A stretch of DNA of 64,000 nucleotides from Stenotrophomonas maltophilia (lineage in GTDB: Bacteria; Pseudomonadota; Gammaproteobacteria; Xanthomonadales; Xanthomonadaceae), in the NCBI RefSeq assembly GCF_039555535.1, contig NZ_CP154630.1, forward strand, positions 385,001 through 449,000. The letters run 5' to 3'. Below, one piece after another: positions 39,831 to 57,223 of the stretch (position 1 is its first letter; every line of letters starts with the position of its first letter). The position numbers were made by a program, and so were the translations under genes. Below the pieces are notes generated by a model. It ran no database searches. It was not told the origin of the DNA and was given only the letters and a program-made list of their open reading frames with translations.

Positions 39831-41132
39831 TCACGCGGCGTCGGCATCCTTGCGCGGCAGCTTGTAGATCACCGCGCCGATGGCAAACGCCACTAGTGCG
39901 GCGGCGATGTTCTGCCAGCTGGCACTGGCGAACAGTGCAAGGCACAGCAGCAGCGCCAGCACCGGAATCAGTGGGCCGCCGGGTAGTTTCAGTGCACCTG
40001 GCCGGTCCGCGAAGCGTTTGGCCAGCACCAGCACCGCAGCCGCCGTACCGATGTAGGCGAACAGGCGCGTGGTCATCGACAGCAGCGCCAGCTGCACGAA
40101 CGAACCCGACAGGGCCAGGCCGAGCGCGATCAGGCCCTGGCACAGGATCGACGCGGCCGGGGTGTGGAAGCGTGGGTGCACCTGCGCCAGGATCTTCGGC
40201 CCGTAGCCATCGCGGGCCAGCGCAAACAGGAAGCGCGGGCCCATCATCATCGTGTTGCTGTTGGTGCCGAGGATGGAGATGGTGGCACCGACAGTCAGGA
40301 TCAGCGCCAGTGCTTCGCCACCGAAGCCGGCGGCGGCATCGGCCAGCGGCGTGGCCGAGCTGGACAGGCCGGCCAGCGTGCCTTGTGCCACCACCTGCAC
40401 CGCGCCGTAGATGACGGTGACGGTGATGATCATGGTGATCAGCGCGAACGGAATGTCACGGCGCGGATTGCGGTATTCGCCGGCGGCGGCCGGAATGTTC
40501 TCGAAACCAGCGTAGGCGTACAGCAGCAGGAGCGCGGCTTCGCCCATGCGCTGCAGGTCATGCGGGTCCGGGCGCTGGCCGGAGAACGCCAGCTGCGGGT
40601 CGATGTAGAACGCGCCGATGGCCACGAACAACAGCAACGGCAGCATCTTGCCGATCACCAGCACCACGCCGGTGCGCGCGGCCGAGCGCACGCCGATGAT
40701 GTTGACCCCGGTGAGGAAGCCCAGCGATACCACGATCACCGCGATGCGACCCATGCCGGCGCCAGCCCACGGCCAGAAGCGTGCGACCGCATCGGCCAGC
40801 GCATTGCTCAATGCGGCCGCCGAGCTGATGCGGGTCAGCCAGATCATCCAGCCGATCTCGAACCCGGCGAAGCGCCCGAACGCCTCGCGGGCATACAGGT
40901 AGCTGCCGCCGGGCTCGTCGAAGTAGCTGGCGGCCTGTGCGTAGCACAGCACCAGCAGCGCGACGACGACGCCGGCGGCGACCACGCCCCACAGGCTGAA
41001 CGGGCCGAGCAGGGCGACGGTGGCGGCCGGCAGCAGGTAGATGCCGCTGCCGATCACATCGTTGATCGACAGGCCGACGATCTGCCAGCGGCTGACCGCG
41101 CGCTGCAGCTGCGGTTCGTCCTGCGCGCTCAA
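39831..41132 (-). CDS. APC-superfamily amino acid/peptide permease
   Basis: A 433-aa, 12-helix transporter of the amino acid-polyamine-organocation type: IVGLSINDVIGSGIYLLPAATVALLGP at the start has the GSGI substrate loop, followed by FDEPGGSYLYAREAFGRFAGFEIGW. I place its start at a TTG whose TTGA overlaps the stop of the upstream transpeptidase gene, so the two are translationally coupled. In this locus it would be the inner-membrane importer of amino acids or short murein peptides released outside. Substrate inferred from context only. Confidence 0.85.
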   Translation of the reverse strand: MSAQDEPQLQRAVSRWQIVGLSINDVIGSGIYLLPAATVALLGPFSLWGVVAAGVVVALLVLCYAQAASYFDEPGGSYLYAREAFGRFAGFEIGWMIWLTRISSAAALSNALADAVARFWPWAGAGMGRIAVIVVSLGFLTGVNIIGVRSAARTGVVLVIGKMLPLLLFVAIGAFYIDPQLAFSGQRPDPHDLQRMGEAALLLLYAYAGFENIPAAAGEYRNPRRDIPFALITMIITVTVIYGAVQVVAQGTLAGLSSSATPLADAAAGFGGEALALILTVGATISILGTNSNTMMMGPRFLFALARDGYGPKILAQVHPRFHTPAASILCQGLIALGLALSGSFVQLALLSMTTRLFAYIGTAAAVLVLAKRFADRPGALKLPGGPLIPVLALLLCLALFASASWQNIAAALVAFAIGAVIYKLPRKDADAA

Positions 41133-41890
41133 TGGGCGTCTCCGCGCAGTGCGGGCAGCTGCCACTGAGCCTGCAGGCGCGTGTACTCGGCGCGCGGCAG
41201 CAGCACGAAGCGCGGCGCATCCTGCGGCCGCAGCCAGTCCAGCAGCGCCTGCATGCGCGCCTGCGGCATCGCGGTGCAGCCGGCGGTGGCCTCGCCGGGC
41301 TGCCGCCACAGGTGGGCGAAGATGCAGCTGCCCTTGCCGGGCTGGTTGTCCGGGTTGTGGGCGATGACGAAGCCTTCCTGGTAACGGACGTCGCCCTTGT
41401 TGTGCAGATCCAGCCGCATCGGCTCGGTGGAAACTGCCACGGCTGCCTTGCCGACCTTCTTCGCGTCGACGATGCGGTTGTAGAACGGCGAGGCAGGCAC
41501 ATCCATGCAGTAGCTGCTGTCGAGCATCGGCTGGTAGGCCATCGCGGTGCCGGGGCGGGTGACCGCATAGCCGAACGCGCTGCCGAGCGCGAACACGCCC
41601 GCCGGGCTGCGGCCATCGCCTTCCTGCTTCTGCGGGCCGTCGGCCTGCGCCGGGTGCAGGCCCAGGCCCCAGGCACTGCCGGTGCGGCCAAGCGCCACCG
41701 GGAACGCCCGTCCATGCGCATGCCAGCCCTTGCCATCGCGCACATAGGCCTGCAGCTGGCCCTGGGTGCTGTCCCAGCCATCGCTGGTGACCACGATCAG
41801 CTGGCGCGCACCCTCCAGCGGCGCGGCGTGGACGGACACCGTTGCGGCAAGCAGCAGCGCAGCGGTAGCGAGACGGACCAGCGATTTCAT
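41129..41890 (-). CDS. L,D-transpeptidase (YkuD-fold) family protein
   Basis: 253 aa with a signal peptide (cleavage near VHA). The catalytic region contains FAHLWRQPGEATAGCTAM near residue 200: the HX(n)SXGC-like motif of YkuD-type L,D-transpeptidases with the active Cys. GRTGSAWGLGLH and SPAGVF near 70-100 match the YafK/ErfK branch. It could cross-link or cleave murein stem peptides, or serve as an L,D-carboxypeptidase. The regulator gene lies 15 bases upstream and the permease overlaps downstream, so the three form a tight operon. Confidence 0.87.
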   Translation of the reverse strand: MKSLVRLATAALLLAATVSVHAAPLEGARQLIVVTSDGWDSTQGQLQAYVRDGKGWHAHGRAFPVALGRTGSAWGLGLHPAQADGPQKQEGDGRSPAGVFALGSAFGYAVTRPGTAMAYQPMLDSSYCMDVPASPFYNRIVDAKKVGKAAVAVSTEPMRLDLHNKGDVRYQEGFVIAHNPDNQPGKGSCIFAHLWRQPGEATAGCTAMPQARMQALLDWLRPQDAPRFVLLPRAEYTRLQAQWQLPALRGDAH

Positions 41891-41905
41891 CAACAGGTGC
41901 TCCGG

Positions 41906-42754
41906 TCAGGAATCCAGCAGGTGGTCGATCCGCTCCAGATTCACCGCCAGCTGCTGCTGGCGGTCCGGATTGGCGTGGCAGAGCAGCACGAACAGGAAAT
42001 CGAGCAGGGCATGCATGGCGCTACGGTACAGCAGCTGCGCGACCTGCGGCGTGCGATCATGCGCACACACCGCCAGTGCTGCGTCAGCATGCGCGCGCAG
42101 CGGGTTGGCGGTGTGGCGGGTAATGGAAATCACCTTGCCACCCATGTCCTGGAACTGGCGCGACAGCTGCGAAAGCTGCGGCAGGTTGCCGAATTCGGAG
42201 AACACCAGCAGCGCATCGCCGGGGCGCGCGGCCGACAGGTTGGCCAGCATCAGGATCGGGTCGGTGTGCGGCACCACCAGCAGGCCGAGCAGCGACAGCC
42301 GCATGGCGAACTCGCGGGCGAACAGGCCATCGTCACCCAGGCCATGGACGAACAGTTTGGGCGCGCCGTCGAGGAGCTGCACGATGCGCTCGATCTCTTC
42401 GCGCGGGTTCGCCTGGCGGGTTTCCTCTTCGGCCTGCGCCTTGCTGCGACGCAGGGCGTCGCCCAGGCGCAGGTAGTCATCGCTGCTGTCGGGTTCGGTG
42501 GGTGCCTGCTGCGGATCGGCGCCAGCACGGGCGACATCCTGGCCGATCGAGTACTTCAGGTCCGGGTAGCCCTTGAAGCCGAGCTTCTGGCTGAACTTCA
42601 CCACGCTGGACTGGCTGATGCCGAGCGCACTGGCCAGCTGCTGGGACGAGTAGTCGCGCAGCAGGTGGGCGTTGTCGAGGATGAAGTCGGCAATGCGGCG
42701 TTCGATGGCCGACATCTGCCCGCGCTCGGAACGGATCTTCAGCAGGGGCGGCAT
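41906..42754 (-). CDS. MurR/RpiR-family transcriptional regulator
   Basis: 282 aa with an N-terminal RpiR helix-turn-helix (ERRIADFILDNAHLLRDYSSQQLASALGISQSSVVKFSQKLGFKGYPDLK, residues about 15-65) and a SIS sugar-phosphate-binding domain (KLFVHGLGDDGLFAREFAMRLSLLG, then VFSEFGN). MurR-type members respond to sugar phosphates such as MurNAc-6-P. It is the first gene of the regulator-transpeptidase-permease unit and probably controls the locus. The open frame extends upstream through a repeat element; I use the ATG at MPPLLKIRSE. Confidence 0.88.
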   Translation of the reverse strand: MPPLLKIRSERGQMSAIERRIADFILDNAHLLRDYSSQQLASALGISQSSVVKFSQKLGFKGYPDLKYSIGQDVARAGADPQQAPTEPDSSDDYLRLGDALRRSKAQAEEETRQANPREEIERIVQLLDGAPKLFVHGLGDDGLFAREFAMRLSLLGLLVVPHTDPILMLANLSAARPGDALLVFSEFGNLPQLSQLSRQFQDMGGKVISITRHTANPLRAHADAALAVCAHDRTPQVAQLLYRSAMHALLDFLFVLLCHANPDRQQQLAVNLERIDHLLDS

Positions 42755-42815
42755 GCGGGGTGTCCGGGCATGTGTAGGCGCGTTGCGGTTGGCAGCGTAG
42801 AGCGTGTCATGGAGT

Positions 42816-42999
42816 GGGTCGGGCGGGTGGGGTTTGCAGGGGACGCCGTGAATCCGTCCATGGAGGCTTGGCCGCGCTTGCGCGTTTGCGCTGTCCTGCG
42901 CAAACGGCAAGACCGGGGTTGGGCGTCCTGCCCAACCCGCCCGAGGCATGCCTCGGGCCCATGGCGCGGACACCCCTGCAAACCCCACCCGCCCGACCC
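42816..42999. repeat. 184-bp long palindromic intergenic element, copy 1
   Basis: Perfect 27-bp inverted ends (GGGTCGGGCGGGTGGGGTTT and CAGGGG on the left) flank an interior that includes the motif GGACGCCGTGAATCC, CCATGGAGGCT and two nested inverted repeats. A shorter relative lies at 53067-53150. Confidence 0.8.
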
Positions 43000-43273
43000 C
43001 GGACAGATCGCGCGCGTGCCAGCCGCGAAGGGGATACGGGGTAGAGCAGAAGCAAGCGCAAAAGCATCCACGCATGTAGTGGATCCACGGGATGCAGTTG
43101 TTGCCTTTGACGTTGAGTCCGCCTTCAAGCGAGCCGAGCACCGCAGGTCCGGCGAGGGCGAAGAGGGGCGGGTGTCTGAGCGCAGCGAGTTCCCGCGCCG
43201 TCCCTCGACGGGCCGAGGAGCGCAGGGAACCGGTGCGTAGCACCGGCTCGCGGCCGGCGGAGCGTTTCTTTTG

Positions 43274-43305
43274 GTTACTTTTCTTTCCGCGGAAAGAAAA
43301 GTAAC
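43274..43305. repeat. 32-bp perfect palindrome
   Basis: GTTACTTTTCTTTCC, GC, GGAAAGAAAAGTAAC. AT-rich in a high-GC gap, preceded by TTTCTTTTG. Similar palindromes are common in proteobacterial intergenic repeats; it could act as a bidirectional terminator or a protein site. Confidence 0.85.
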
Positions 43306-43352
43306 GCCCGACCAAGAGTCAGTTGTACGCCAGGCCAGCCGCAAGGCAGAGA

Positions 43353-44447
43353 TCAACCCAGCATCTCCAGCCCACGCACTTCGGTGATGCCCAACCCCGG
43401 CACGTCGCTGATGCTGATCTCCGATTCGTTGAAATGCACGCCCCCGCTGACCGGGTCGAACTGGCCCAGCGACGGGCCGTCCAGGTCGACCTTGGTGATC
43501 ACATCGCTCTTGGCCACCGCCAGGTGCACGGCGGCGGCAACGCTGATGCTGGATTCGATCATGCAGCCGATCATGCACGGCACACCGTAGATGCCGGCGA
43601 TGTCGGCGATGCGGATCGCGTTGGACAAGCCGCCGGTCTTCATCAGCTTGATGTTGATGATGTCGGCCGCGCGCTGCTGGATCAGGTCCATCACCTGGCT
43701 CGGGCTGAACACGCTCTCGTCGGCCATCACCGGCGTGTTGACGCGGTCGGTGACGTACTTCAGACCGCTGATGTCGGCCGCCTTTACCGGTTGCTCCAGC
43801 AGCTCCAGCACCACGCCGGCCTCTTCCAGCGTGCGCATCGCATGCACCGCCTGCTTGGCGGTCCAGCCCTGGTTGGCGTCCAGGCGCAGCAGGGCGCGGC
43901 CTTCCACCGCCGCATGGATCGCCTTGACCCGCTCGATGTCCAGGCCGATGTCCTTGCCGACCTTGATCTTCAGCGACTCGAAGCCGCGGTCGATCGCCGA
44001 CAGTGAATCGGCCACCATCTTGTCGATGTAGTCCACGCTGATGGTGATGTCGGTGGTGATCACCGGGTCGCCGCCACCGAGCATCTGGTACAGCGGCGCA
44101 CCGTGCAGCTGCGCCCACAGGTCGTACAGCGCGATCTCCACCGCGGCCTTGGCACTGGTGTTGCGCTCCATCGCGGTCTGCACCAGCCCGCACAGACGAT
44201 TGAGGTTGACCACGTCCTGGCCGATCAGGCGCGGCGCGATGAAGTGGCGGATCGCTTCGATGATCGAGCCGTGCGTATCACCGGTGATCACTGCGGTGGC
44301 GGGGGCTTCGCCGTAGCCGGTGTGGCCGGTGTCGGTGCGGATCAGTACGACCACGTCTTCCACGGTCTCCACCGTGCGCAGGGCGGTCTTGAACGGCGTC
44401 TTCAGCGGCACGCGCAGCATGCCCAGTTCGATGGCAGTGATCTTCAT
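43353..44447 (-). CDS. Dipeptide epimerase of the enolase superfamily (Ala-D/L-Glu type)
   Basis: A 364-aa muconate-lactonizing subgroup enzyme epimerising dipeptides such as L-Ala-D-Glu, the core of murein stem peptides. The acid/base Lys is K162 in KIKVG, with K267 in NIKLMK opposite; metal ligands are D190 (RLDANQGW), E218 (LLEQP) and D243 (MADES). The C-terminal VDLDGP (D321, D323) is the motif that binds the dipeptide ammonium. Its ATG overlaps the NlpC/P60 stop (ATGA), so the two are coupled. This is the clearest sign that the locus handles murein peptides. Confidence 0.92.
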   Translation of the reverse strand: MKITAIELGMLRVPLKTPFKTALRTVETVEDVVVLIRTDTGHTGYGEAPATAVITGDTHGSIIEAIRHFIAPRLIGQDVVNLNRLCGLVQTAMERNTSAKAAVEIALYDLWAQLHGAPLYQMLGGGDPVITTDITISVDYIDKMVADSLSAIDRGFESLKIKVGKDIGLDIERVKAIHAAVEGRALLRLDANQGWTAKQAVHAMRTLEEAGVVLELLEQPVKAADISGLKYVTDRVNTPVMADESVFSPSQVMDLIQQRAADIINIKLMKTGGLSNAIRIADIAGIYGVPCMIGCMIESSISVAAAVHLAVAKSDVITKVDLDGPSLGQFDPVSGGVHFNESEISISDVPGLGITEVRGLEMLG

Positions 44448-45892
44448 TCAGGAGTCTTGGCGCGCAGGCGCTGGATGTTGGTGATGCGGTCGATGTAGCG
44501 GACGGTATCGCTGGCCATCATCGGCTCCAGCGGCGTGACCGAAACACCATTGAGGTGGGCCTGTACGCGCTTGCCGTCAGCACCGAACCAACTGCCGCCC
44601 GCGGTATCGTGGATGACCCAGGTGCGGCCGTCGACGTGGCCGATAGCCATCATCACGTGCCCAGGGATATAGACCAGGTCGCCCACCTGCAGATCGGTGA
44701 CCGCACGTTCGCGCGCGGCCTTGCCGACCCTGTCGGTGAAGGGCAGGCGGTCCAGCGCAGGGCTGATCGCCTGTGCGCTGGTATTGCGCGGCAGCAGCAC
44801 GCCGAAGCTGCGGTAGATCTCGGAAACGAAGCCGCTGCAGTCGCGCGTGTCGTAGTCGTGGCCCCAACCGTAGCGCTCGCCCAGGAACTTGAAGGCCTGC
44901 TGCAGCAGCAGGCGCGGAGTCAGTGGCAGGTAGTCGGCGGCGGTGTCCTGCGAGCGCGGCAGCAGCGCCGGCACCAGCTTCAGGCGGCCATCGGTTTCGC
45001 GCACCGGCAGCTGCACAACCCACGAGGCATGCGCCTGCTGGCCGTTCACCGGTTCGGCGGCGGGCCAGTCGGCCAGCACCGGCAGGCGCACGCCCATGTC
45101 CAGCTGCAGGCGCGAGACGCGCGGTTCCTCCGGGGTGTAGGCGGTCTGTGCGGTGGCGCCGGTGACGATGCGATACGGGCCCTTCGTGCCGTAGCCGAGC
45201 ACCGTGCCCTTGTCGCCGCTGGCGATGGCGTCGGCTTCGATCCACGCGCTGTAGCGCTCGCTGTGCACGAACAGCCAGCGGCCATCGGCGCTGCGATGGA
45301 CCACGGCAACCTTGTCACCGGGGAACAGTGCCGATTCCTGGAAGCGGTCGATGTCGGTGTCACCGGCAGTGCTGAAGACGCGCTCGCGGGTGGGGAAGGT
45401 GCGCAGCGCGGCACGCTTCACCACCAGCCCGTAGGCCGGTGTCACCTGCGCGGGAATCGCATCGAGGCCGAGGTTGGCCTGGATGCCGCTGCGTAGCGCC
45501 GGGGCGATGGCCTTGCCCTTCTCGTTGAACAGTGCACGCTCGGGCCAGCGTGACAATGCGCTGATGCTGGCGCGTACCTGCGCGGCATCGAGCTGTGCGG
45601 GCAGCGAAGCGATGTCCTGGATGTGGCTGTCCTGCGCCCGCATCCGCGCGTTCTGCGCGTCGATCTGCGCGCGGTCCAGGATCGGCGCATCGGCATTGTC
45701 CAGGCGTGCGGCCCAGTACTGCGGTGTCAGGTAGGCCTCGTGCAGGCCAACCACATAGGGCAGCGGCGCGCCGGGGTCAGGTGGCGGTGCAGCCTGTGCG
45801 AAGGCCGGTGCGGCCAGCAGGCACAGGGCCAGGGTCAACCGGCGCGACCACTGCCGGTCCGGTGCGCGGGAAGCCAGGATCATGCGCTGCAT
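44444..45892 (-). CDS. SH3-NlpC/P60 (C40) murein peptidase
   Basis: 482 aa with a signal peptide (cleavage after AFAQA), an N-terminal domain of about 130 residues, two SH3-like modules (about 140-310) and a C-terminal NlpC/P60 domain. Catalytic Cys is in YDTRDCSGFVSEIYRSFG near 352 and His in IPGHVMMAIGHVDG near 412. The enzyme should cut gamma-D-Glu-mDap bonds in the periplasm and release L-Ala-D-Glu, the substrate of the epimerase encoded next. A strong GGAGG site lies just upstream, and the divergent transglutaminase gene starts 120 bases away. Confidence 0.92.
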   Translation of the reverse strand: MQRMILASRAPDRQWSRRLTLALCLLAAPAFAQAAPPPDPGAPLPYVVGLHEAYLTPQYWAARLDNADAPILDRAQIDAQNARMRAQDSHIQDIASLPAQLDAAQVRASISALSRWPERALFNEKGKAIAPALRSGIQANLGLDAIPAQVTPAYGLVVKRAALRTFPTRERVFSTAGDTDIDRFQESALFPGDKVAVVHRSADGRWLFVHSERYSAWIEADAIASGDKGTVLGYGTKGPYRIVTGATAQTAYTPEEPRVSRLQLDMGVRLPVLADWPAAEPVNGQQAHASWVVQLPVRETDGRLKLVPALLPRSQDTAADYLPLTPRLLLQQAFKFLGERYGWGHDYDTRDCSGFVSEIYRSFGVLLPRNTSAQAISPALDRLPFTDRVGKAARERAVTDLQVGDLVYIPGHVMMAIGHVDGRTWVIHDTAGGSWFGADGKRVQAHLNGVSVTPLEPMMASDTVRYIDRITNIQRLRAKTPE

Positions 45893-45912
45893 ACCCTCCT
45901 CGAATGCCAGTT

Positions 45913-45926
45913 GGAATATTTATTCC
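45913..45926. promoter_or_regulatory. Candidate operator palindrome 1 of the murein locus
   Basis: Perfect GGAATA-TT-TATTCC palindrome in the AT-rich divergent promoter. It lies 20 bases upstream of the NlpC/P60 ATG. A site for the MurR/RpiR protein encoded in the locus is inferred. Confidence 0.5.
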
Positions 45927-45944
45927 TTTCTCTGGCGAAAGCAA

Positions 45945-45957
45945 GAATAAATTATTG
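45945..45957. promoter_or_regulatory. Candidate operator palindrome 2 of the murein locus
   Basis: GAATAA-A-TTATTG, perfect over AATAA-A-TTATT. Its centre is about 32 bases from that of the first palindrome, close to three helical turns, so two dimers could bind the same face. Confidence 0.45.
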
Positions 45958-46015
45958 ACCGGTGTTCCGGCCCGTGTTACACAGCCATTACCACCCGCGC
46001 TGGGGAAGTGTCGCT

Positions 46016-47488
46016 GTGGATCCTGCCGTTCGCAAACCGCGTCTGCCTGCTGCTGCCGGCCTGTGTGCCGCGCTGCTGCTGTGGGCGTCGGCCGCGCAGG
46101 CGGCGGATGCGCGCAGCAGCCAGCAGCGGGCGCGCCAGACGCAGGTGATCGACCTGATCGACAGCGGTCGTTTCAGCGATGCCGAAGCGCTGCTGGCAAC
46201 GGCAGGCAATACTGCCGAAGGCGCCTTCCAGCGCGAGCGCATGCGCCGTATCCGCCTGGATTTCAGCCTTGACCAGCAGGCCGCGAAGGCCGCCGTGCGC
46301 CGCTGGATCCCCGACCTGAGCGACGAGGAATTCGCGCGCTGGGACCAGCTCGGCCTGATCGAACACCTCGATATCGATGGCACGCGCCGGTACTTCAAGC
46401 GTGCACCGTCGAACCTGTTCCTGCTCAGCGACGAAGCGCGTGCACGTCGCCGCGCAGATGCGCCTATGCCGGCGCCAGGCCCGAACGAAGTGCTCAACGC
46501 ACACCACGCGCGCGTGGTTGCCGCCGCCGAACAGAGCGGCCAGGCCTGGGTGCTGCCACAGCGCATCGAATTCACCCAGACGCTGACGGTGAAGGCCGAT
46601 GCCGTGCCGGCCGGCGAAACCGTGCGCGCATGGATTCCCTATCCGCGCGAGATCCCGGGGCAGCAGGAGCAGGTGCAGTGGCTGGGCAGCGCCCCGGGCA
46701 AGGCGCGGGTGGCACCGGCCAGTACCCTGCAGCGCACCGCCTACCTGGAAGCCAAAGCCGTAGCCGGCAAGCCGACCCGGTTCGAGATCCGCTACGCGGC
46801 GACGATCTTCGCGCGGCACACCGCGATCGATCCGGCGAAGGTGCAGGCCACGCCGAATGATCCTGCGTTGAAGCCCTACCTGGCCCAACAGCTGCCGCAT
46901 GTGCGCTTCACCCCGGCGCTGAAGCTGTTCTCCGACCAGGTGCTGCAGGGCGAAACACGCCCCCATGAAGTGGTGCGCAGGCTGTTCGCTGCTGTCGACC
47001 GTATTCCGTGGGCCGGTGCACGCGAATACTCCACGCTCAGCAACATCAGCGATTACGCCTTGCGCACTGGCCATGCCGACTGCGGGCAGCAGACCCTGCT
47101 GCTGATCGCGCTGATGCGCATGAACGGCATTCCCGCGCGCTGGCAGTCGGGCATGGTGTTCTCCGGCGATGGCAGTGGTTACAACAATCTGCACGACTGG
47201 GGGCAGGTCTACCTGGCGCCGTACGGCTGGCTGCCAATGGACGTGACCACCGGCGCGCTGGCCAGCGATGTAACGGCATTGCGCGACTTCTACCTGGGTG
47301 GCCTCGATGGTTACCGCATCGCCTTCAACGACGATTTCGGCCAGCCCTTGGTGCCGGCCAAGCAGCACTTCCGCTCGGAAACGGTCGACTCGCAGCGCGG
47401 CGAGGCCGAGTGGGCAGGCGGCAACCTGTACTTCGACCAATGGAGCTACGACTTCCAGTGGCGGGTACTGCCAGCCGGGCAACGCTAG
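46016..47488 (+). CDS. Secreted transglutaminase-like cysteine protein
   Basis: A 490-aa protein with a signal peptide (cleavage after AAQA), a helical N-terminal domain, a beta domain (about 190-290) and a transglutaminase-core fold. The triad is in TGHADCGQQT (Cys near 355), NNLHDWGQVYL (His near 392) and PMDVTTG (Asp near 407). Bacterial members act as peptidases or amidases, which fits removal or rearrangement of cell-wall peptides. I use a GTG start seven bases after GGGGAAG, giving a normal signal peptide; a more upstream GTG exists. First gene of the plus-strand arm. Confidence 0.85.
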   Translation: MDPAVRKPRLPAAAGLCAALLLWASAAQAADARSSQQRARQTQVIDLIDSGRFSDAEALLATAGNTAEGAFQRERMRRIRLDFSLDQQAAKAAVRRWIPDLSDEEFARWDQLGLIEHLDIDGTRRYFKRAPSNLFLLSDEARARRRADAPMPAPGPNEVLNAHHARVVAAAEQSGQAWVLPQRIEFTQTLTVKADAVPAGETVRAWIPYPREIPGQQEQVQWLGSAPGKARVAPASTLQRTAYLEAKAVAGKPTRFEIRYAATIFARHTAIDPAKVQATPNDPALKPYLAQQLPHVRFTPALKLFSDQVLQGETRPHEVVRRLFAAVDRIPWAGAREYSTLSNISDYALRTGHADCGQQTLLLIALMRMNGIPARWQSGMVFSGDGSGYNNLHDWGQVYLAPYGWLPMDVTTGALASDVTALRDFYLGGLDGYRIAFNDDFGQPLVPAKQHFRSETVDSQRGEAEWAGGNLYFDQWSYDFQWRVLPAGQR

Positions 47489-47539
47489 CGCGACACATCG
47501 CATTCCACACCATTCAATTCTTGCAGGAGAGAGCAGGGG

Positions 47540-50500
47540 ATGAAGGCTTACAGCATCAAGCGGGCGGCATTGTGCGTCGCCCTCGGGGCGTGTCTGGGCG
47601 TAGTGCTGCCCGGCATCGCGATGGCACAGAACGTAAGCGGCGCGGTCGCCGGCCGTGCAACCGCCGGTGACCAGGTCACCGTGGTCAGCAGCAGCACTGG
47701 CCTGACCCGTACCGTCACCGTTGGCGCCGATGGCAGCTACCGCCTCGGCCAGCTGCCGGTGGGTGACTACCAGCTGCAGCTCAGCCGCGATGGCCAGAAG
47801 CTGGGCGATCAGGTATCGGTAAGCGTTGCCGTCGGCGGTACAACCACGGTCAACCTGGCCAGCGGCGGCGGTGTCACCAACCTGGATGCACTGCAGGTGG
47901 TTGGCACGCGCGTGATCAACCGCGTGGATGTCTACTCCACCGAAACCTCGTTCAACATCAACCGCCAGGAGATCTCGCGGCTGCCGGTGGCGCAGGACCT
48001 GTCTGCGGTCGCGCTGATGGCGCCGGGCGTGGTCGGCGGCAACTCCTCATTCGGTGGCCTGTCGTTCGCCGGTTCATCGGTGGCCGAGAATGCGGTCTTC
48101 ATCAACGGCCTTAATGTCACCGACATGTATACCCGTCGTGGCTTCAGCACCGCGCCGTTCGCGTTCTTCAATGAATTCCAGGTCAAGACCGGCGGTTACT
48201 CGGTGGAGTTCGGCCGCTCCACCGGTGGCGTGATCAACGCCGTGACCCGCTCGGGCAGCAATGAATTCGAGGGCGGTGTTGAAGTCACCGCCGAGCCGAG
48301 TGCGTGGCGCGCCAGTGGCGGCGATCATTTCCACCGCGACGGCACTCCGCATTCCTACGGCAGCCGCGACAACAATTCCTTCCTGAAGACCAACGTCTGG
48401 GGCTCGGGACCCATCATCAAGGACAAGCTGTTCCTGTTCGCGATGTACGAGGACCGCAGCGACAAGGGCCACAACACCTCGTCCGATGGCAGTACCTGGT
48501 TCAAGAACGATTCCGGCAACGGCTTCTGGGGCACCAAGCTGGACTGGAACATCAACGACAACCACAGCCTGGCGCTGCTGGCGTTCTCCGACGAGGGCGA
48601 TGTCACCAATGCGTCGTACGGCTACAACTGGAAGGCCGACCAGCTCGGTGCGTGGGGTGGCGACTCGGTCACCGAGACCGGCGGCCGCAACTGGTCGGCC
48701 ACCTACACCGGCCACTTCGGCCAGAACTTCACCGCGCGTGCCATGGTCGGCCAGAACAAGCAGCGCGCCTTCACCAACTCGTCGCTGGACCAGGCCTGCA
48801 GCCCCGTGTTCACCGACAGCACCTACGGCCCGCGGCTGGGCAAGCTGCAGGGGCTGCGCGCCGGTTGCCACCCGACCGGCGCGGCCGTGGCCGAGCGCGA
48901 TGACACCCGCGATGTCGCGCGCCTGGACTTCGAATGGCAGCTCGGCGACCACCTGCTGCGCTTCGGTGTCGACCGCGAACTGATGACCACCAAGCAGTCC
49001 ACCCGTTATCCAGGGCCGACCGAGCTGAGCTACACCGCCTACGTGGCGCGGCCCGGCGATGAAGTGTGGGATGGCGCCAACGCCTACGTACCGGCCGGCG
49101 TCACCGAGATGCTGCGTGCTCGCAACCGCCGCTCGGGCGGCACCTTCGAGACCGAGGCCAATGCCTTCTATCTGGAAGACATCTGGAACATCACCCCGAA
49201 CCTGATGCTGAACCTTGGCGTGCGCTGGGACCGCTTCGAGAACCGCACCGCTGCAGGCAAGGCGTTCATCAAGATGGACGACCTGATCGCGCCACGCGTC
49301 GGCTTCTCCTGGGACATGCGCGGCGATGGCAGCACCAAGCTGTTCGGCAACGCCGGCCGCTACTACCTGCCGGTCACCAACAACATCAACGTGAACTTCG
49401 CCGGTGGCCTGACCGACGAATACAGCTATTACGTGCTGAACGGCTGGGAACGGAAAACCTCGCCGACCGGTTCGCCGTACATGGCACCCATCGTCGGCCA
49501 GCAGATCGGGCCGACCGACACCCGCATGAACACCGGCGGCGCCGACCTGCGCCAGAGCGTGGACCGTGACCTGAAGGCGGTTTACCAGGACGAGTACATC
49601 CTGGGCTTCCAGAACATGATCAACCAGGCCTGGTCGTGGGGCGTCAATGCCACCTACCGGCGCATGACCCGCGCGCTGGATGACATCCGCATCAACTACA
49701 CCCCATGCGGCCCGACCCCCAGCACGCTGTGGCCGATCGCCAACCCGGGCGAGAGCCTGACGATCTGGGGCGACAAGAGCATCGGTTGCGCCAACGAAGG
49801 CTGGATCACCATCGATACCGCCAACAGCGGCTACCGCAAGGGCGGCAGCGGCGAGGTGATCGGCTACTCCAAGCCCAAGCGCACCTACAAGGCGCTGGAG
49901 TTCCAGATCGACCGTGCCTGGGACGAGAAGTGGATGTTCAACGCGTCCTACCTGTGGTCGAAGAGCGAAGGCAACTTCGAAGGCCCGGTGAACTCCGATA
50001 CCAATTACGGTGATACCGGCATGGTGCAGTTCTGGGACCACCCGGCCACCAATGAACGTTATGGCGTGCTGTTCAACGACTTCCGTCATCAGTTCAAGCT
50101 GCGTGCCGCGTATGCGCTGAACAAGCAGTGGTCGTTCGGCACCACGCTGCAGGTGCAGTCCGGTGGCCCGATCACCGCCTACGGCGTGATGTGGCCGAAC
50201 GACTCCATCGCCGGTGGCAGCACCTCCAGCGAGGGCAGTGGCGGTGGCACCGGCTGGCTGTGCGTGGCCAACTGTGCGGGTCCCTACAACCAACGGCAGT
50301 TCGAATACAGCCCACGCGGTGCGTTTGGCCGCCTGCCGTGGACCTGGACCATGGGGGCCAATGTGACCTGGCGGTTGCCGGTGGAGGGCATCGACCTCAG
50401 CGCCCGCTTGTCGGTGTACAACCTCACCAACAACCAGAAGACCATCAACGTGCACCAGCGCTATGAAGCACAACCCGGCCAGTACCGTGAGGCGACATTT

Positions 50501-50563
50501 GCGACCGGCACGCGCTGGCAGGCCCCGCGTTATACCCAGCTGGTGGTGACCTGGAACTTCTGA
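47540..50563 (+). CDS. TonB-dependent receptor, Oar-like with N-terminal regulatory domain
   Basis: A 1007-aa outer membrane importer. A signal peptide (cleavage near AMAQ) is followed by a carboxypeptidase-regulatory-like beta domain (about 30-115), the plug (LDALQVVGTRVINRVD, VFINGLNVTD, NEFQVKTGGYSVEFGRSTGGVINAVTRSG) and a large 22-strand barrel that ends in VVTWNF. Oar-type receptors of xanthomonads take up diverse nutrients other than iron. The gene starts 51 bases after the transglutaminase gene with GGAGAGAG before the ATG and precedes murein peptidase genes, so uptake of murein peptides is inferred. Confidence 0.92.
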   Translation: MKAYSIKRAALCVALGACLGVVLPGIAMAQNVSGAVAGRATAGDQVTVVSSSTGLTRTVTVGADGSYRLGQLPVGDYQLQLSRDGQKLGDQVSVSVAVGGTTTVNLASGGGVTNLDALQVVGTRVINRVDVYSTETSFNINRQEISRLPVAQDLSAVALMAPGVVGGNSSFGGLSFAGSSVAENAVFINGLNVTDMYTRRGFSTAPFAFFNEFQVKTGGYSVEFGRSTGGVINAVTRSGSNEFEGGVEVTAEPSAWRASGGDHFHRDGTPHSYGSRDNNSFLKTNVWGSGPIIKDKLFLFAMYEDRSDKGHNTSSDGSTWFKNDSGNGFWGTKLDWNINDNHSLALLAFSDEGDVTNASYGYNWKADQLGAWGGDSVTETGGRNWSATYTGHFGQNFTARAMVGQNKQRAFTNSSLDQACSPVFTDSTYGPRLGKLQGLRAGCHPTGAAVAERDDTRDVARLDFEWQLGDHLLRFGVDRELMTTKQSTRYPGPTELSYTAYVARPGDEVWDGANAYVPAGVTEMLRARNRRSGGTFETEANAFYLEDIWNITPNLMLNLGVRWDRFENRTAAGKAFIKMDDLIAPRVGFSWDMRGDGSTKLFGNAGRYYLPVTNNINVNFAGGLTDEYSYYVLNGWERKTSPTGSPYMAPIVGQQIGPTDTRMNTGGADLRQSVDRDLKAVYQDEYILGFQNMINQAWSWGVNATYRRMTRALDDIRINYTPCGPTPSTLWPIANPGESLTIWGDKSIGCANEGWITIDTANSGYRKGGSGEVIGYSKPKRTYKALEFQIDRAWDEKWMFNASYLWSKSEGNFEGPVNSDTNYGDTGMVQFWDHPATNERYGVLFNDFRHQFKLRAAYALNKQWSFGTTLQVQSGGPITAYGVMWPNDSIAGGSTSSEGSGGGTGWLCVANCAGPYNQRQFEYSPRGAFGRLPWTWTMGANVTWRLPVEGIDLSARLSVYNLTNNQKTINVHQRYEAQPGQYREATFATGTRWQAPRYTQLVVTWNF

Positions 50564-50618
50564 GGCCACGATCCGCGCCGTCCACCGTGACGGCGCAGGC
50601 AATGGAGGGACTGCCCGC

Positions 50619-52172
50619 ATGCACCACCTGCTGATCCTCGCGGCGGCACTGGCTGCACCGTCCGCGTCGTCGGCCGACAGCGCCGCAATCGAGGCCGACA
50701 TCGCGGCCGTGGTCCAGGCCGAGCATCTGCCCGGGCTGGCGCTGGCGGTGGTCGAGGAGGGGCGGGTGGTCCATCGCCATGCAGGGGGCGCGCGCGGCGA
50801 TGGCGGCCGCATCGACGAGGACACGCTGTTCAAGATCGCGTCCAACAGCAAGGCGATGACCGCTGCGCTGCTGGCGCGGTTGGTGCAGCAGGGCAGGCTG
50901 CACTGGGATGATCCGGTGCAGCGGCATCTGCCGGGCTTCCGCATGCACGATGCGTGGGTGGGCCAGCAGATGCAGGTGCGCGACCTGTTGATCCACAACA
51001 GCGGCCTCGGCCTGGGCGCCGGTGATCTGATGCTGTGGCCGGAGCCGAACGCCTTCACCCGTGCCGACATCATCGCCGGGCTGGCGCACCTGAAGCCGGT
51101 CAGCAGCTTCCGCAGCCGCTATGCGTACGACAACCTGATGTACGTGGTGGCCGGCGAAGTGGCGGCGGCGGCGGGTGGCAAGCCGTACGACCAGTTGATG
51201 CGCGAGCAGGTGTTCGAACCACTGGGCATGACGCGCTGCCAGGTGGGGGCGTGGTCGGTGAAGCGCGTGGGCAACGTGGCACAGCCGCATGCCTGGCGTG
51301 GTGAACGCAACGAGGTGGTGAACGCCGATGCTGCGATCAGCCCGGACCTGCCCTCGATGGCGGCGGGTGGCATCCGTTGTTCGCTGCGCGACATGACACG
51401 CTGGATGCAGGTGCTGCTCGATCCCGCCCTGGTACCTGACTGGCTGGACAGCACGCAACGCCGCACGCTGTGGACCCTGCACATGCCGATGCCACTGGGC
51501 GAGCGCCAGCGGCGCTGGGACAACGCGCATTTCTACGGTTATGGGTATGGCTGGCGGGTGTCGGACATGGACGGGCAGTGGAAGGTGGCGCATACCGGCA
51601 CGCTGTCAGGCATGTATTCATCGCTGGCGCTGCTGCCCGACCGCAGGGTGGGCGTGGTGATGCTGATCAACGGCGAAGGCGAGGACGCACGCACGGCGCT
51701 GATGCAGGCGATGCTGAAGCGCTTCACCGCACCAGACGATACGCGCCCGGCGATGGAGTACCTGGCCGAACTGAAGGCTGACCGAGCGGCGCAGGCAGCG
51801 TCTGGCCACCAACGGCCGGCGACCGCAGCCGCGCAGCCGGCACGCGGCGATGACCTGCCGCGTTGGCAGGGTCGCTACAGCGATCCCTGGCTGGGGCCCG
51901 CATCGTTGTGCCCGGACAGGGACGGCCTGCGCTTCAGCGTGGACAGATCGCCACGGCTGCAGGGTGCCGTGCTGCAACTACAGGAGCGTTGGCTGCTGCG
52001 CTGGGATACGCTGGGCGAAGACGCGCAGGCGTGGCTGCAGCCAGGCGAAGGCCCGGCACCGACACTGGACCTGCGTGCCATCGATCCGGACATCGACTTC
52101 AGCTATGACTTCCAGGACCTGCATTTCACTCGTACTGGCGACTGCCCTGGCAGCGACCGCCAACGCCGCTGA
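50619..52172 (+). CDS. Penicillin-binding-protein-type serine hydrolase (class C beta-lactamase fold)
   Basis: A 517-aa secreted hydrolase. After a short signal peptide, IASNSKAMT (SxxK, Ser near 74) and YDNLMYVVAG (YxN near 170) form the catalytic core, and the KTG-like motif is HTG in KVAHTGTLSGMY near 327, all in the right order. The C-terminal 130 residues form an extra domain like that of D-aminopeptidases and PbpE-type esterases. Likely a DD-peptidase, esterase or D-aminopeptidase on murein peptides; it is not obviously an antibiotic-resistance enzyme. Its 3' end overlaps the dipeptidase gene by 68 bases. Confidence 0.87.
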   Translation: MHHLLILAAALAAPSASSADSAAIEADIAAVVQAEHLPGLALAVVEEGRVVHRHAGGARGDGGRIDEDTLFKIASNSKAMTAALLARLVQQGRLHWDDPVQRHLPGFRMHDAWVGQQMQVRDLLIHNSGLGLGAGDLMLWPEPNAFTRADIIAGLAHLKPVSSFRSRYAYDNLMYVVAGEVAAAAGGKPYDQLMREQVFEPLGMTRCQVGAWSVKRVGNVAQPHAWRGERNEVVNADAAISPDLPSMAAGGIRCSLRDMTRWMQVLLDPALVPDWLDSTQRRTLWTLHMPMPLGERQRRWDNAHFYGYGYGWRVSDMDGQWKVAHTGTLSGMYSSLALLPDRRVGVVMLINGEGEDARTALMQAMLKRFTAPDDTRPAMEYLAELKADRAAQAASGHQRPATAAAQPARGDDLPRWQGRYSDPWLGPASLCPDRDGLRFSVDRSPRLQGAVLQLQERWLLRWDTLGEDAQAWLQPGEGPAPTLDLRAIDPDIDFSYDFQDLHFTRTGDCPGSDRQRR

Positions 52173-52818
52173 ACCACCGCGTGTTTCACCCGCCACCGGC
52201 GCGGCCGACGCCGGGCTGGTGGAGATCCGGTCGGTGGCGCCACGTATCGACATGGATATCCGCTACGCCGGTGCCAACAACTTCACCGGCGCGCGTGTTC
52301 CGGGCTACGAGGCTCCTTCCTGTTACCTGCTGGCCCCGGTGGCGAAAGCGCTGGCGCGGGTGGAACAGGATCTGCGTGCGCAGGGTTTTGGCCTGCGCCT
52401 CTACGACTGCTACCGGCCAGTACGCTCGGTGCAGGCCTTCATGGCCTGGGTGAACGACCCGGGCGAACTCTCGCGCAAGGCGTTGCAGTACCCGGACCTG
52501 GACAAGCCGCGCCTGCTGGCCGATGGCTACATCGCAGAGCGTTCTGGCCACAGCCGTGGCGCCACGGTGGATCTTGGGTTGCTGGATTGCAGCAGCGGCA
52601 GCTGCACGCCGTTGGACATGGGTACCGACTTCGACTTCTTCGGGCCACGTGCGCACACGCAGGCGAGCGGACTGAGCGAGGTGCAGCAGGCAAACCGCCA
52701 GCAGTTGGTACGGGCAATGGCGCGCCGCGGCTTCGTGAATTACCCCCAGGAGTGGTGGCACTACACCCTGCAACCCGAACCGGATCCGGGCACCGCGTAC
52801 GACGTCCCGGTACGGTAG
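52105..52818 (+). CDS. ddpX: D-alanyl-D-alanine dipeptidase (M15D, VanX/DdpX type)
   Basis: A 237-aa secreted zinc dipeptidase that splits D-Ala-D-Ala. The zinc and catalytic motifs are SGHSRGATVDL near residue 148 (His, Asp) and EWWHYTL near 217 (Glu, His), with RLYDCYRPVRSVQAF near 100 carrying the conserved Arg. A signal peptide (cleavage near NAAEP) begins at an ATG inside the previous gene; the 68-base overlap implies strong coupling. Because it is exported it should act as a nutrient scavenger, not as a vancomycin-resistance enzyme. Last gene of the murein locus. Confidence 0.93.
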   Translation: MTSRTCISLVLATALAATANAAEPPRVSPATGAADAGLVEIRSVAPRIDMDIRYAGANNFTGARVPGYEAPSCYLLAPVAKALARVEQDLRAQGFGLRLYDCYRPVRSVQAFMAWVNDPGELSRKALQYPDLDKPRLLADGYIAERSGHSRGATVDLGLLDCSSGSCTPLDMGTDFDFFGPRAHTQASGLSEVQQANRQQLVRAMARRGFVNYPQEWWHYTLQPEPDPGTAYDVPVR

Positions 52819-55861: not shown

Positions 55862-57223
55862 ATGAGCGCCTCTTTCGTTTCGCCTGATGTGATCCGCCGC
55901 CTGTTCGCGCAGGCCATGTCCCGCATGTACCGCACCGAAGTGCCGCTGTACGGCACGCTGGTGGAACTGGTGGAGCGGATCAACGCGCAGGTGCTTGCCC
56001 AGGATCCGGCGCTGGCCGCGCAGCTGCAGCGCAACGACGAGCGTGCACGCCTGGATGAAGAGCGCCATGGCGCGATCCGCGTCGGCACCGTGCAGGAGCT
56101 GGCCACGCTGCGCCGCCTGTTCGCGGTGATGGGCATGTACCCGGTGGGCTACTACGACCTGTCGGTGGCTGGCGTGCCGGTGCACTCCACCGCGTTCCGC
56201 CCGCTCACTGGCACCGCGCTGGCGCAGAACCCGTTCCGCGTGTTCACCTCGCTGCTGCGCCTGGAGCTGATCGAAGACGAAGCGCTGCGTGCCGAATCGG
56301 CGAAGATCCTTGCGCGACGCCGTATCTTCACCGACGGCGCGCTGGCGCTGATCGACCAGGCCGAGCGTGACGGCGGCCTGTCGCAGGCTGATGCCGAACG
56401 CTTCGTCGATGAAGCGCTGGAAACCTTCCGCTGGCACGGCGATGCCACCGTTGACCTGCCGACCTACCACGCGCTGCACAACGCGCATCGCCTGGTGGCC
56501 GACGTGGTCAGCTTCCGTGGCCCGCACATCAACCACCTGACCCCGCGCACGCTGGACATCGACGCCGCGCAGGCCGCGATGATCGAACACGGCATGGCGG
56601 CCAAGGCGGTGATCGAAGGCCCACCGCGCCGCGCCTGCCCGATCCTGCTTCGCCAGACCAGCTTCAAGGCACTGGAAGAGGCCGTGCATTTCCCGGGCGG
56701 CGAAGGCGGCGATGCCGGCACCCATACCGCGCGCTTCGGCGAGATCGAACAGCGCGGCCTTGCGCTCACCCCGAAGGGCCGCGCGCTGTACGACCAGCTG
56801 CTGTCGCAGGCACGCGATGCCGGTGGCGAAGGCAGCACTGGCGGCGACTACGGCCAGCGCCTGCAGGCGGTGTTCGCCAGCTTCCCGGATGACCATGACA
56901 CGCTGCGCCAGGAAGGCCTGGGCTATTACCGCTACCAGCTGACCGACGCCGGCCGCGCCGCGCCCGAGCGCGTGGCCGATCTGCCGGCTGAAGTGCTGGT
57001 GGCCGCCGGACTGGCCACGGCCGATCCGATCGTCTACGAGGATTTCCTGCCGGTCAGTGCCGCAGGCATCTTCCAGTCGAACCTGGGCGGTGAAGAACAG
57101 CGCGCCTATGCCGCACACGCCAACCGCGAGGCCTTCGAGCAGGCGCTGGGCGTGGCTGTGAATGACGAGTTCGAGATCTACGAGCGGCTGCAGGCCGAAT
57201 CGTTGGCGGCGCTGCGCGGGTAA
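55862..57223 (+). CDS. 2-oxoadipate dioxygenase/decarboxylase family (DUF1338, HglS/YdcJ)
   Basis: A 453-aa VOC-fold Fe(II) enzyme. The family converts 2-oxoadipate to D-2-hydroxyglutarate in lysine breakdown. YYDLSVAGVPVHSTAFRPL near residue 100 has the His and Arg of the active site, and the metal ligands continue in INHLTPRTLDID near 225 and LRQEGLGYYRYQLTDAG near 350. FRWHGDATVDLPTYHALHNAHRLVADV also matches. Full length. No lysine-pathway neighbour is near, so its substrate here is inferred from family only. Confidence 0.88.
   Translation: MSASFVSPDVIRRLFAQAMSRMYRTEVPLYGTLVELVERINAQVLAQDPALAAQLQRNDERARLDEERHGAIRVGTVQELATLRRLFAVMGMYPVGYYDLSVAGVPVHSTAFRPLTGTALAQNPFRVFTSLLRLELIEDEALRAESAKILARRRIFTDGALALIDQAERDGGLSQADAERFVDEALETFRWHGDATVDLPTYHALHNAHRLVADVVSFRGPHINHLTPRTLDIDAAQAAMIEHGMAAKAVIEGPPRRACPILLRQTSFKALEEAVHFPGGEGGDAGTHTARFGEIEQRGLALTPKGRALYDQLLSQARDAGGEGSTGGDYGQRLQAVFASFPDDHDTLRQEGLGYYRYQLTDAGRAAPERVADLPAEVLVAAGLATADPIVYEDFLPVSAAGIFQSNLGGEEQRAYAAHANREAFEQALGVAVNDEFEIYERLQAESLAALRG

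Follow-up and report, generated by a model that had tools for sequence, protein, structure and literature searches.

A candidate murein-peptide utilisation locus with a TonB-dependent receptor and its own RpiR-type regulator in Stenotrophomonas maltophilia

Nutrient-utilisation loci built around a TonB-dependent receptor are known for sugars; could a bacterium feed on the peptides of the cell wall, murein, in the same manner? The question is raised by a divergent gene cluster of Stenotrophomonas maltophilia (assembly GCF_039555535.1, a single contig of 4.83 Mb), located at positions 39831-52818 of the 64,000-nt stretch that we analysed as a whole (the window; contig NZ_CP154630.1, positions 385,001 to 449,000), whose coordinates are used throughout. 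We consider it likely that the genes of this locus serve the utilisation of murein peptides, with a single local regulator and TonB-driven capture. Synteny and site data link a receptor, degradative enzymes, a carrier and a regulator, together with a common regulatory site, and relatives add accessory genes of murein type; all of this supports the proposal of the first-pass annotation that we are dealing with a peptide counterpart of a polysaccharide utilisation locus. That annotation had also spoken of murein-peptide capture and recycling. Use of murein peptides agrees with our data, but ‘catabolism’ is a better term than ‘recycling’, because the genome also encodes an Mpl ligase (619.9 bits) for ordinary recycling.

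Open reading frames (ORFs) and family profile searches define nine genes in two divergent arms, with the gene families initially described; a count of ten had been given, although nine were named. On the minus strand, reading away from the divergent promoter, lie an SH3b plus NlpC/P60 peptidase of the gamma-D-Glu-diamino-acid endopeptidase type (44444..45892; PF12913 and PF00877), an L-Ala-D/L-Glu-type dipeptide epimerase (43353..44447), a spacer of about 600 bases with no recognised gene (42755..43352), a MurR/RpiR-type regulator with HTH_6 and SIS domains and an ATG start (41906..42754), a YkuD-fold enzyme of the L,D-transpeptidase/carboxypeptidase type (41129..41893; PF03734, 30.8 bits against a cut-off of 23.4), and an APC-family amino-acid permease with a TTG start (39831..41132; PF13520, 1.1e-45 on a longer ORF). 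The plus strand carries a transglutaminase-fold cysteine enzyme (45962..47488, the likely start, chosen by eye, being GTG at 46016), an Oar-like TonB-dependent receptor with a CarboxypepD_reg domain (47540..50563), a serine hydrolase of the beta-lactamase/PBP fold, AmpH-like (50619..52172; PF00144, 3.8e-66), and a VanX-type D-Ala-D-Ala dipeptidase of family M15 (52105..52818; PF01427, 9.2e-38). The three operon couplings noted at first are all present in the sequence: epimerase and NlpC/P60 genes overlap by 4 bases (ATGA), the permease start overlaps the YkuD stop as TTGA, and the hydrolase and dipeptidase genes share 68 bases. Judged by eye from hydrophobic N-termini, the NlpC/P60 peptidase, the YkuD-fold and transglutaminase-fold enzymes, the PBP-fold hydrolase and the dipeptidase have signal-like N-termini, which the epimerase and the regulator lack.

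Is this arrangement conserved? We obtained 80 named loci, excluded eight shorter than 15 kb and counted the remaining 72; a second set comprised 40 stretches of about 18.6 kb, five of them from other families. The resulting 112 loci are partly non-independent, some genomes being present in both sets (e.g. L060 and L129), and receptor counts refer to matches to three receptor queries only. Of the 395 genomes that represent the family, 295 encode a relative of the epimerase (E<=1e-60). All 72 named loci contain the epimerase, accompanied by NlpC/P60 in 71, RpiR in 71, YkuD in 65, the transglutaminase-fold gene in 63, Oar in 63 and any of the three receptor types in 68. An APC or SDF carrier is present in 67, the beta-lactamase fold in 51 and VanX in 42, the hydrolase and VanX counts being possibly low, as accessory genes may push these genes past the end of the stretch, or reflecting true loss. 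The second set gives a similar picture (NlpC 39, RpiR 34, YkuD 34, transglutaminase 31, any receptor 36 of 40). Genera with the locus include Stenotrophomonas, Pseudoxanthomonas, Xanthomonas, Luteimonas, Lysobacter, Rhodanobacter, Dyella, Luteibacter, Frateuria, Dokdonella and Tahibacter. In the 57 named loci with an epimerase of less than 87% identity, RpiR (56), NlpC (56), Oar (49) and any receptor (53) persist, whereas flanking genes become rare: a glucose-dehydrogenase-like gene falls from 15 of the 72 to two of the 57, YiaAB from eight to one, a small ORF beside the permease from 18 to seven, an ORF after the dipeptidase from 19 to six, and HAD from five to two. The cluster is thus no chance neighbourhood: the content and order of the block are kept while the flanks drop away. 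Co-conservation, on which the first-pass annotation had staked its proposal, was therefore found across many genera, as far as sequence can tell.

Co-regulation, the other property at stake, is indicated at the level of DNA motifs by a single conserved two-part palindromic site in the divergent promoter. Read on the plus strand, half 1 is GAATATTTATTC at 45914-45925 and half 2 is GAATAAATTATTGAC at 45945-45959. Half 1 is the sole exact match to GAATANTTATTC in the 4.83-Mb genome (G000:C1:430914-430925), and half 2 likewise has no other exact match there; the one other site-like match, with two mismatches, lies at G000:C1:1016886-1016900 (L203). Half 2 overlaps a -35-like TTGACC (45955-45960) followed, after 17 bases, by TACACA. 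Recognised by eye from its similar arrangement in relatives, this possible plus-arm promoter (45955..45983) was not called by a consensus scanner. RpiR, which we infer to bind both halves, most likely acts as a repressor, given the overlap between the site and the -35-like box.

The presence of the site follows that of the regulator closely. Half 2 was found within two mismatches, anywhere in the stretch, in 104 of 106 RpiR-positive loci (window included), the two without it being L161 and Pseudidiomarina L164, and only five further matches of this quality occur across all loci. It lies at most 600 bases from NlpC in 76 of the 106, and in many of the others, judging from distances and gene layout, a DUF819 gene of about 1.2 kb intervenes. 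In each of the 30 site-centred loci retrieved, the site is flanked by NlpC or DUF819 and, on the opposite side, by the transglutaminase-fold gene or (L186) by a receptor. At the scale of the 395 genomes, exact half 2 (with W at one place) is present in 190 and RpiR (E<=1e-60) in 213; both occur in 188, RpiR only in 25, the site only in two, which are incomplete assemblies (85% and 57%), and neither in 180 (Fisher p 1.7e-81, ignoring kinship). A reversed control pattern of half 2 gave no match in the same 395-genome table. Genus g37 provides a natural control, with the epimerase (E<=1e-60) in 35 of 35 genomes and RpiR or the site in none of them. Loci without RpiR in genus g26 (L051, L078) and in Xanthomonas hortorum (L162) have a decayed site or none, and a g26 locus with RpiR (L050) has it; L051, counted as RpiR-negative, retains a partial match (40% identity over 0.3 of the length) that looks like a remnant.

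Does the receptor belong to this regulon? The protein of the window matches the fold of solved TonB transporters; it scores just under the cut-off of the TonB barrel Pfam model (26.7 bits against 27) and above that of OMP_b-brl_4. A second exact copy of half 2 exists in 16 of the 395 genomes, and a third in none. We examined all 16, and in every one the gene after the second copy encodes a TonB receptor: 14 are of the TBDT7 type (including L057), one is TBDT14 (L232) and one is Oar (L237); examples of each type were confirmed as TonB receptors with Pfam. The site likewise precedes a TBDT7 receptor in L072 and L108. In the draft genome G063, an Oar receptor with its own copy of the site sits on a contig (201,966 bases, at about position 56,600) separate from that of the transglutaminase arm (L236), which suggests that the receptor left the cluster and kept the site. 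Second copies in front of receptors link these to the regulon by evidence other than gene order, and membership of the receptor in the RpiR-site regulon is supported by sequence.

The receptor is also the part of the locus that changes most. Oar proteins from 97 loci form two clades of 50 and 47 members that are about half identical to each other. When the clade labels are mapped onto a tree built from the epimerase, NlpC and RpiR of 94 loci, a minimum of 18 changes is required, against a mean of 31.8 and a lowest value of 25 in 200 shuffles. DNA similarity among close relatives is lost within the receptor gene and returns close to its end, and the most conserved receptor stretch is residues 181-240. 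The window and its close Stenotrophomonas relatives L088, L089, L090, L092 and L093, among which distinct Oar types have been exchanged, carry three receptor types between them, with epimerases that are 99-100% identical and other cluster genes that are 87-99% identical. Pressure at the cell surface, from phage or bacteriocin, or the choice of ligand would explain such exchange.

What would the enzymes do? The closest solved relative of the epimerase is the L-Ala-D/L-Glu epimerase of Bacillus subtilis, 1JPM (353.7 bits, the next reaching 265.9), and this match suggests specificity for L-Ala-D-Glu. Positions R24, KxK and DxD, which we take to be the functional ones, are invariant in six aligned sequences, and the motifs are found in 108 of 113. 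The peptidase has the SH3b plus NlpC/P60 architecture of the YkfC-type subfamily, with 3M1U as best solved relative. The His and Cys motif of YkuD is intact, as it is in 100 of 100 homologues, the SxxK, YxN and HTG motifs of the hydrolase are found in 75 of 77, and the dipeptidase matches the VanX structure 1R44 at 1e-41.

From these families we can propose a pathway. Murein fragments, from lysed neighbours or own turnover, would be imported by the Oar receptor in a TonB-powered step. In the periplasm, NlpC/P60 would cleave the gamma-D-Glu-diaminopimelate bond and the VanX-type enzyme D-Ala-D-Ala; the trimming or cleavage of other bonds would fall to the YkuD, PBP-fold and transglutaminase-fold enzymes. 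An APC or SDF carrier would then move amino acids and L-Ala-D-Glu over the inner membrane, and the epimerase, presumably cytoplasmic in view of its N-terminus, would convert L-Ala-D-Glu to L-Ala-L-Glu for ordinary dipeptidases to finish. RpiR would occupy the two-part site in the divergent promoter until released by a murein-derived signal. Profile searches of the genome found no MurQ above cut-off (27.6 bits) and no NamZ, and the strain is accordingly predicted to keep only the peptide half of murein use.

Relatives add partners whose families point to the same chemistry. Among the 72 named loci, 24 have LysA, diaminopimelate decarboxylase (471 bits, cut-off 297.9), 19 an M19 membrane dipeptidase, 12 Amidase_2 and 24 a DUF819 membrane protein. 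In another family (L080, L081), an S66 LD-carboxypeptidase, epimerase, NlpC and amidase form one arm, an Oar-like receptor and a symporter form the divergent one, and an alanine racemase gene lies close by (Pfam run on L080); the L080 receptor reaches 22.9 bits with the TonB barrel model, under the cut-off of 27, and is assigned by similarity. Outside the order, in family f14, L217 combines epimerase, NlpC, VanX, amidase, RpiR and a D-amino-acid-transaminase-like protein with NamZ, a kinase-MurQ fusion and a symporter; its partial receptor-like ORF is 51-53% identical to the L080 and L219 proteins and has no Pfam match. L218 of the same family has NlpC, epimerase, YkuD, DUF819, a kinase-like protein, MurQ, NamZ and RpiR, and L219 has epimerase, NlpC, YkuD, PBP4 and a receptor-like protein with CarboxypepD_reg only and no barrel match. 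In Pseudidiomarina L164, RpiR diverges from a group made up of a carrier, hydrolase, alanine racemase, NlpC and epimerase, and the receptor queries find no match. Two fusions in L217 are informative: transglutaminase and YkuD, on opposite arms in the window, form one ORF of 708 residues (L217:5833-7959), and amidase, PG-binding and beta-lactamase-fold domains form another of 815 residues (L217:2328-4775). Together with the murein-type partners, these fusions would link the plus-arm enzymes to murein, and the accessory genes of relatives are, by family assignment, genes of murein chemistry.

A broader proposition, towards which we lean with less assurance than towards the locus itself, is that at least three types of TonB receptor (the Oar-like type and two more) actively import murein peptides or muropeptides and were repeatedly recruited to one RpiR regulon, and that the complete loci of related bacteria use foreign wall as food, in both its peptide and its sugar halves.

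Several observations weigh against murein-peptide capture by this locus. The receptor is its most variable part, with two deep Oar clades that alternate and other receptors that substitute for them, and a receptor for one universal peptide would need no such variety. The permease slot is variable too, an SDF/GltP-like symporter standing in place of the permease in 43 of the 72 named loci and APC in 24. Four of the 72 (L132, L144, L162, L164) have no match to the three receptor queries, no receptor is among the listed ORFs of L218, and X. hortorum L162 keeps epimerase, NlpC, YkuD, APC, amidase and VanX with no RpiR, site or receptor match. The exact site was not found in the 25 genomes with RpiR only, exact matches alone having been searched. 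Dipeptidase, hydrolase and epimerase all score under curated equivalog cut-offs (NCBIfam VanX, 180.6 bits against 320; AmpH, 104.2 against 266; NF041118, 250.8 against 500, and NF011708, 118 against 343, both epimerase models built on other branches). The transglutaminase-fold protein is without known substrate. A regulator with a SIS domain, scoring 90.8 bits with the NCBIfam equivalog of E. coli MurR (cut-off 408), stands at a peptide locus in a genome without NamZ or MurQ above cut-off. Finally, Asp256 of YkfC-type enzymes binds the free N-terminus of the murein peptide, according to PMC2954226. By motif, Asn replaces this Asp in 105 of 106 NlpC sequences, one having Asp, and 3M1U also has Asn; larger muropeptides may therefore be the substrates rather than free peptides.

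Part of this would fit periplasmic salvage of the cell's own shed wall peptides, the co-regulated receptor carrying some other nutrient of the same growth state. The degradative enzymes look periplasmic or cytoplasmic, receptor types vary, and epimerase, NlpC and YkuD occur without a receptor-query match in X. hortorum L162 and in L082 (which has a large unassigned ORF). Against salvage of this kind speak the receptor gene after the second exact site copy in 16 of 16 genomes, the Mpl ligase that already provides for classical recycling, and the renewed pairing of enzymes with an Oar-like protein, assigned by similarity, in other families (L080, L217, L219); we regard it as unlikely. Still less probable is general scavenging, in which assorted peptides or proteins of lysed cells would enter by way of the receptor and meet an epimerase and peptidases of broad dipeptide specificity. 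It could draw on receptor diversity and on the ‘putative cysteine protease’ 3ISR, the nearest solved relative of the transglutaminase-fold enzyme, but the rank of 1JPM ahead of other dipeptide epimerases and the murein-type partners (VanX-type, NlpC, YkuD, Amidase_2, LysA, LD-carboxypeptidase, NamZ, MurQ) argue for a narrower diet. YkuD, PBP-fold and NlpC families also serve wall editing, and one might see here remodelling of the cell's own wall or a response to beta-lactam stress with incidental transport genes; as this leaves unexplained the cytoplasmic epimerase, the D-Ala-D-Ala dipeptidase, the amino-acid carriers, LysA, the racemase and the receptors with the site, we give it very little credence. 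A chance neighbourhood of unrelated genes, to which only the variable cluster ends could be likened, is refuted by conservation across genera and by the site data, and its probability is negligible.

Utilisation of murein peptides under a local regulator has partial precedents. The ykf genes of Bacillus likewise place an epimerase (YkfB) beside an SH3b-NlpC/P60 peptidase (YkfC), with the same proposed chemistry (PMC2954226). Bacillus, being Gram-positive, uses oligopeptide-binding-protein transport and has no outer membrane, hence no TonB receptor, and YkfC bears the Asp256 signature that is absent from NlpC here. Regulation of ykf also differs from that of the Stenotrophomonas locus. In E. 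coli, ycjG/mpaA with PgrR represents epimerase-based murein-peptide breakdown under a local regulator, which is of LysR type, with a cytoplasmic peptidase and no known receptor. The Caulobacter GlcNAc cluster and other sugar loci with TonB receptors similarly group receptor, enzymes, inner-membrane carrier and regulator (PMC13046382), for a sugar substrate there and with peptidases and an epimerase here. Foreign murein is scavenged by Tannerella forsythia through murTKQ and NamZ, which concern the sugar half in the sections consulted of PMC10465942, whereas the Stenotrophomonas locus would hold the peptide half only; NamZ, the kinase and MurQ of that salvage recur in the f14 relatives L217 and L218. 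Our literature search found no earlier description of such a locus, and the extension of TonB-receptor utilisation loci from sugars to murein peptides would be what is new.

Fragments of murein are important both as a signal and as a nutrient, and porins or leakage are usually invoked to explain how they cross the outer membrane. Lysis of neighbours or induction of beta-lactamase by muropeptides is known for bacteria such as Lysobacter and Stenotrophomonas. Such induction is described in the abstract of PMC5574705. With a conserved receptor in a murein-peptide regulon, active uptake would be open to direct test. The regulatory site can guide the search for more receptors, and those that replace one another are natural variants for ligand tests.

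Some further features of the loci deserve mention. DUF819 recurs beside NlpC and the epimerase within and beyond the order (e.g. L061:8607-9794, L218:7917-9083) and might carry murein dipeptide or D-amino acids across the inner membrane. L-piperidine-6-carboxylate dehydrogenase (763.6 bits in L069, cut-off 730) adjoins the carrier in 11 of the 112 loci (L060, L061, L068, L069, L070, L117, L121, L129, L146, L151, L156), 10 of which have LysA too; the two enzymes may form a route from diaminopimelate to lysine and on to its catabolism. The dehydrogenase is often followed by pyrD, which may mean plain chromosomal neighbourhood. In the window itself, the spacer between epimerase and regulator contains a perfect 32-base palindrome at 43274-43305, GTTACTTTTCTTT-CCGCGG-AAAGAAAAGTAAC, present there in a single copy.

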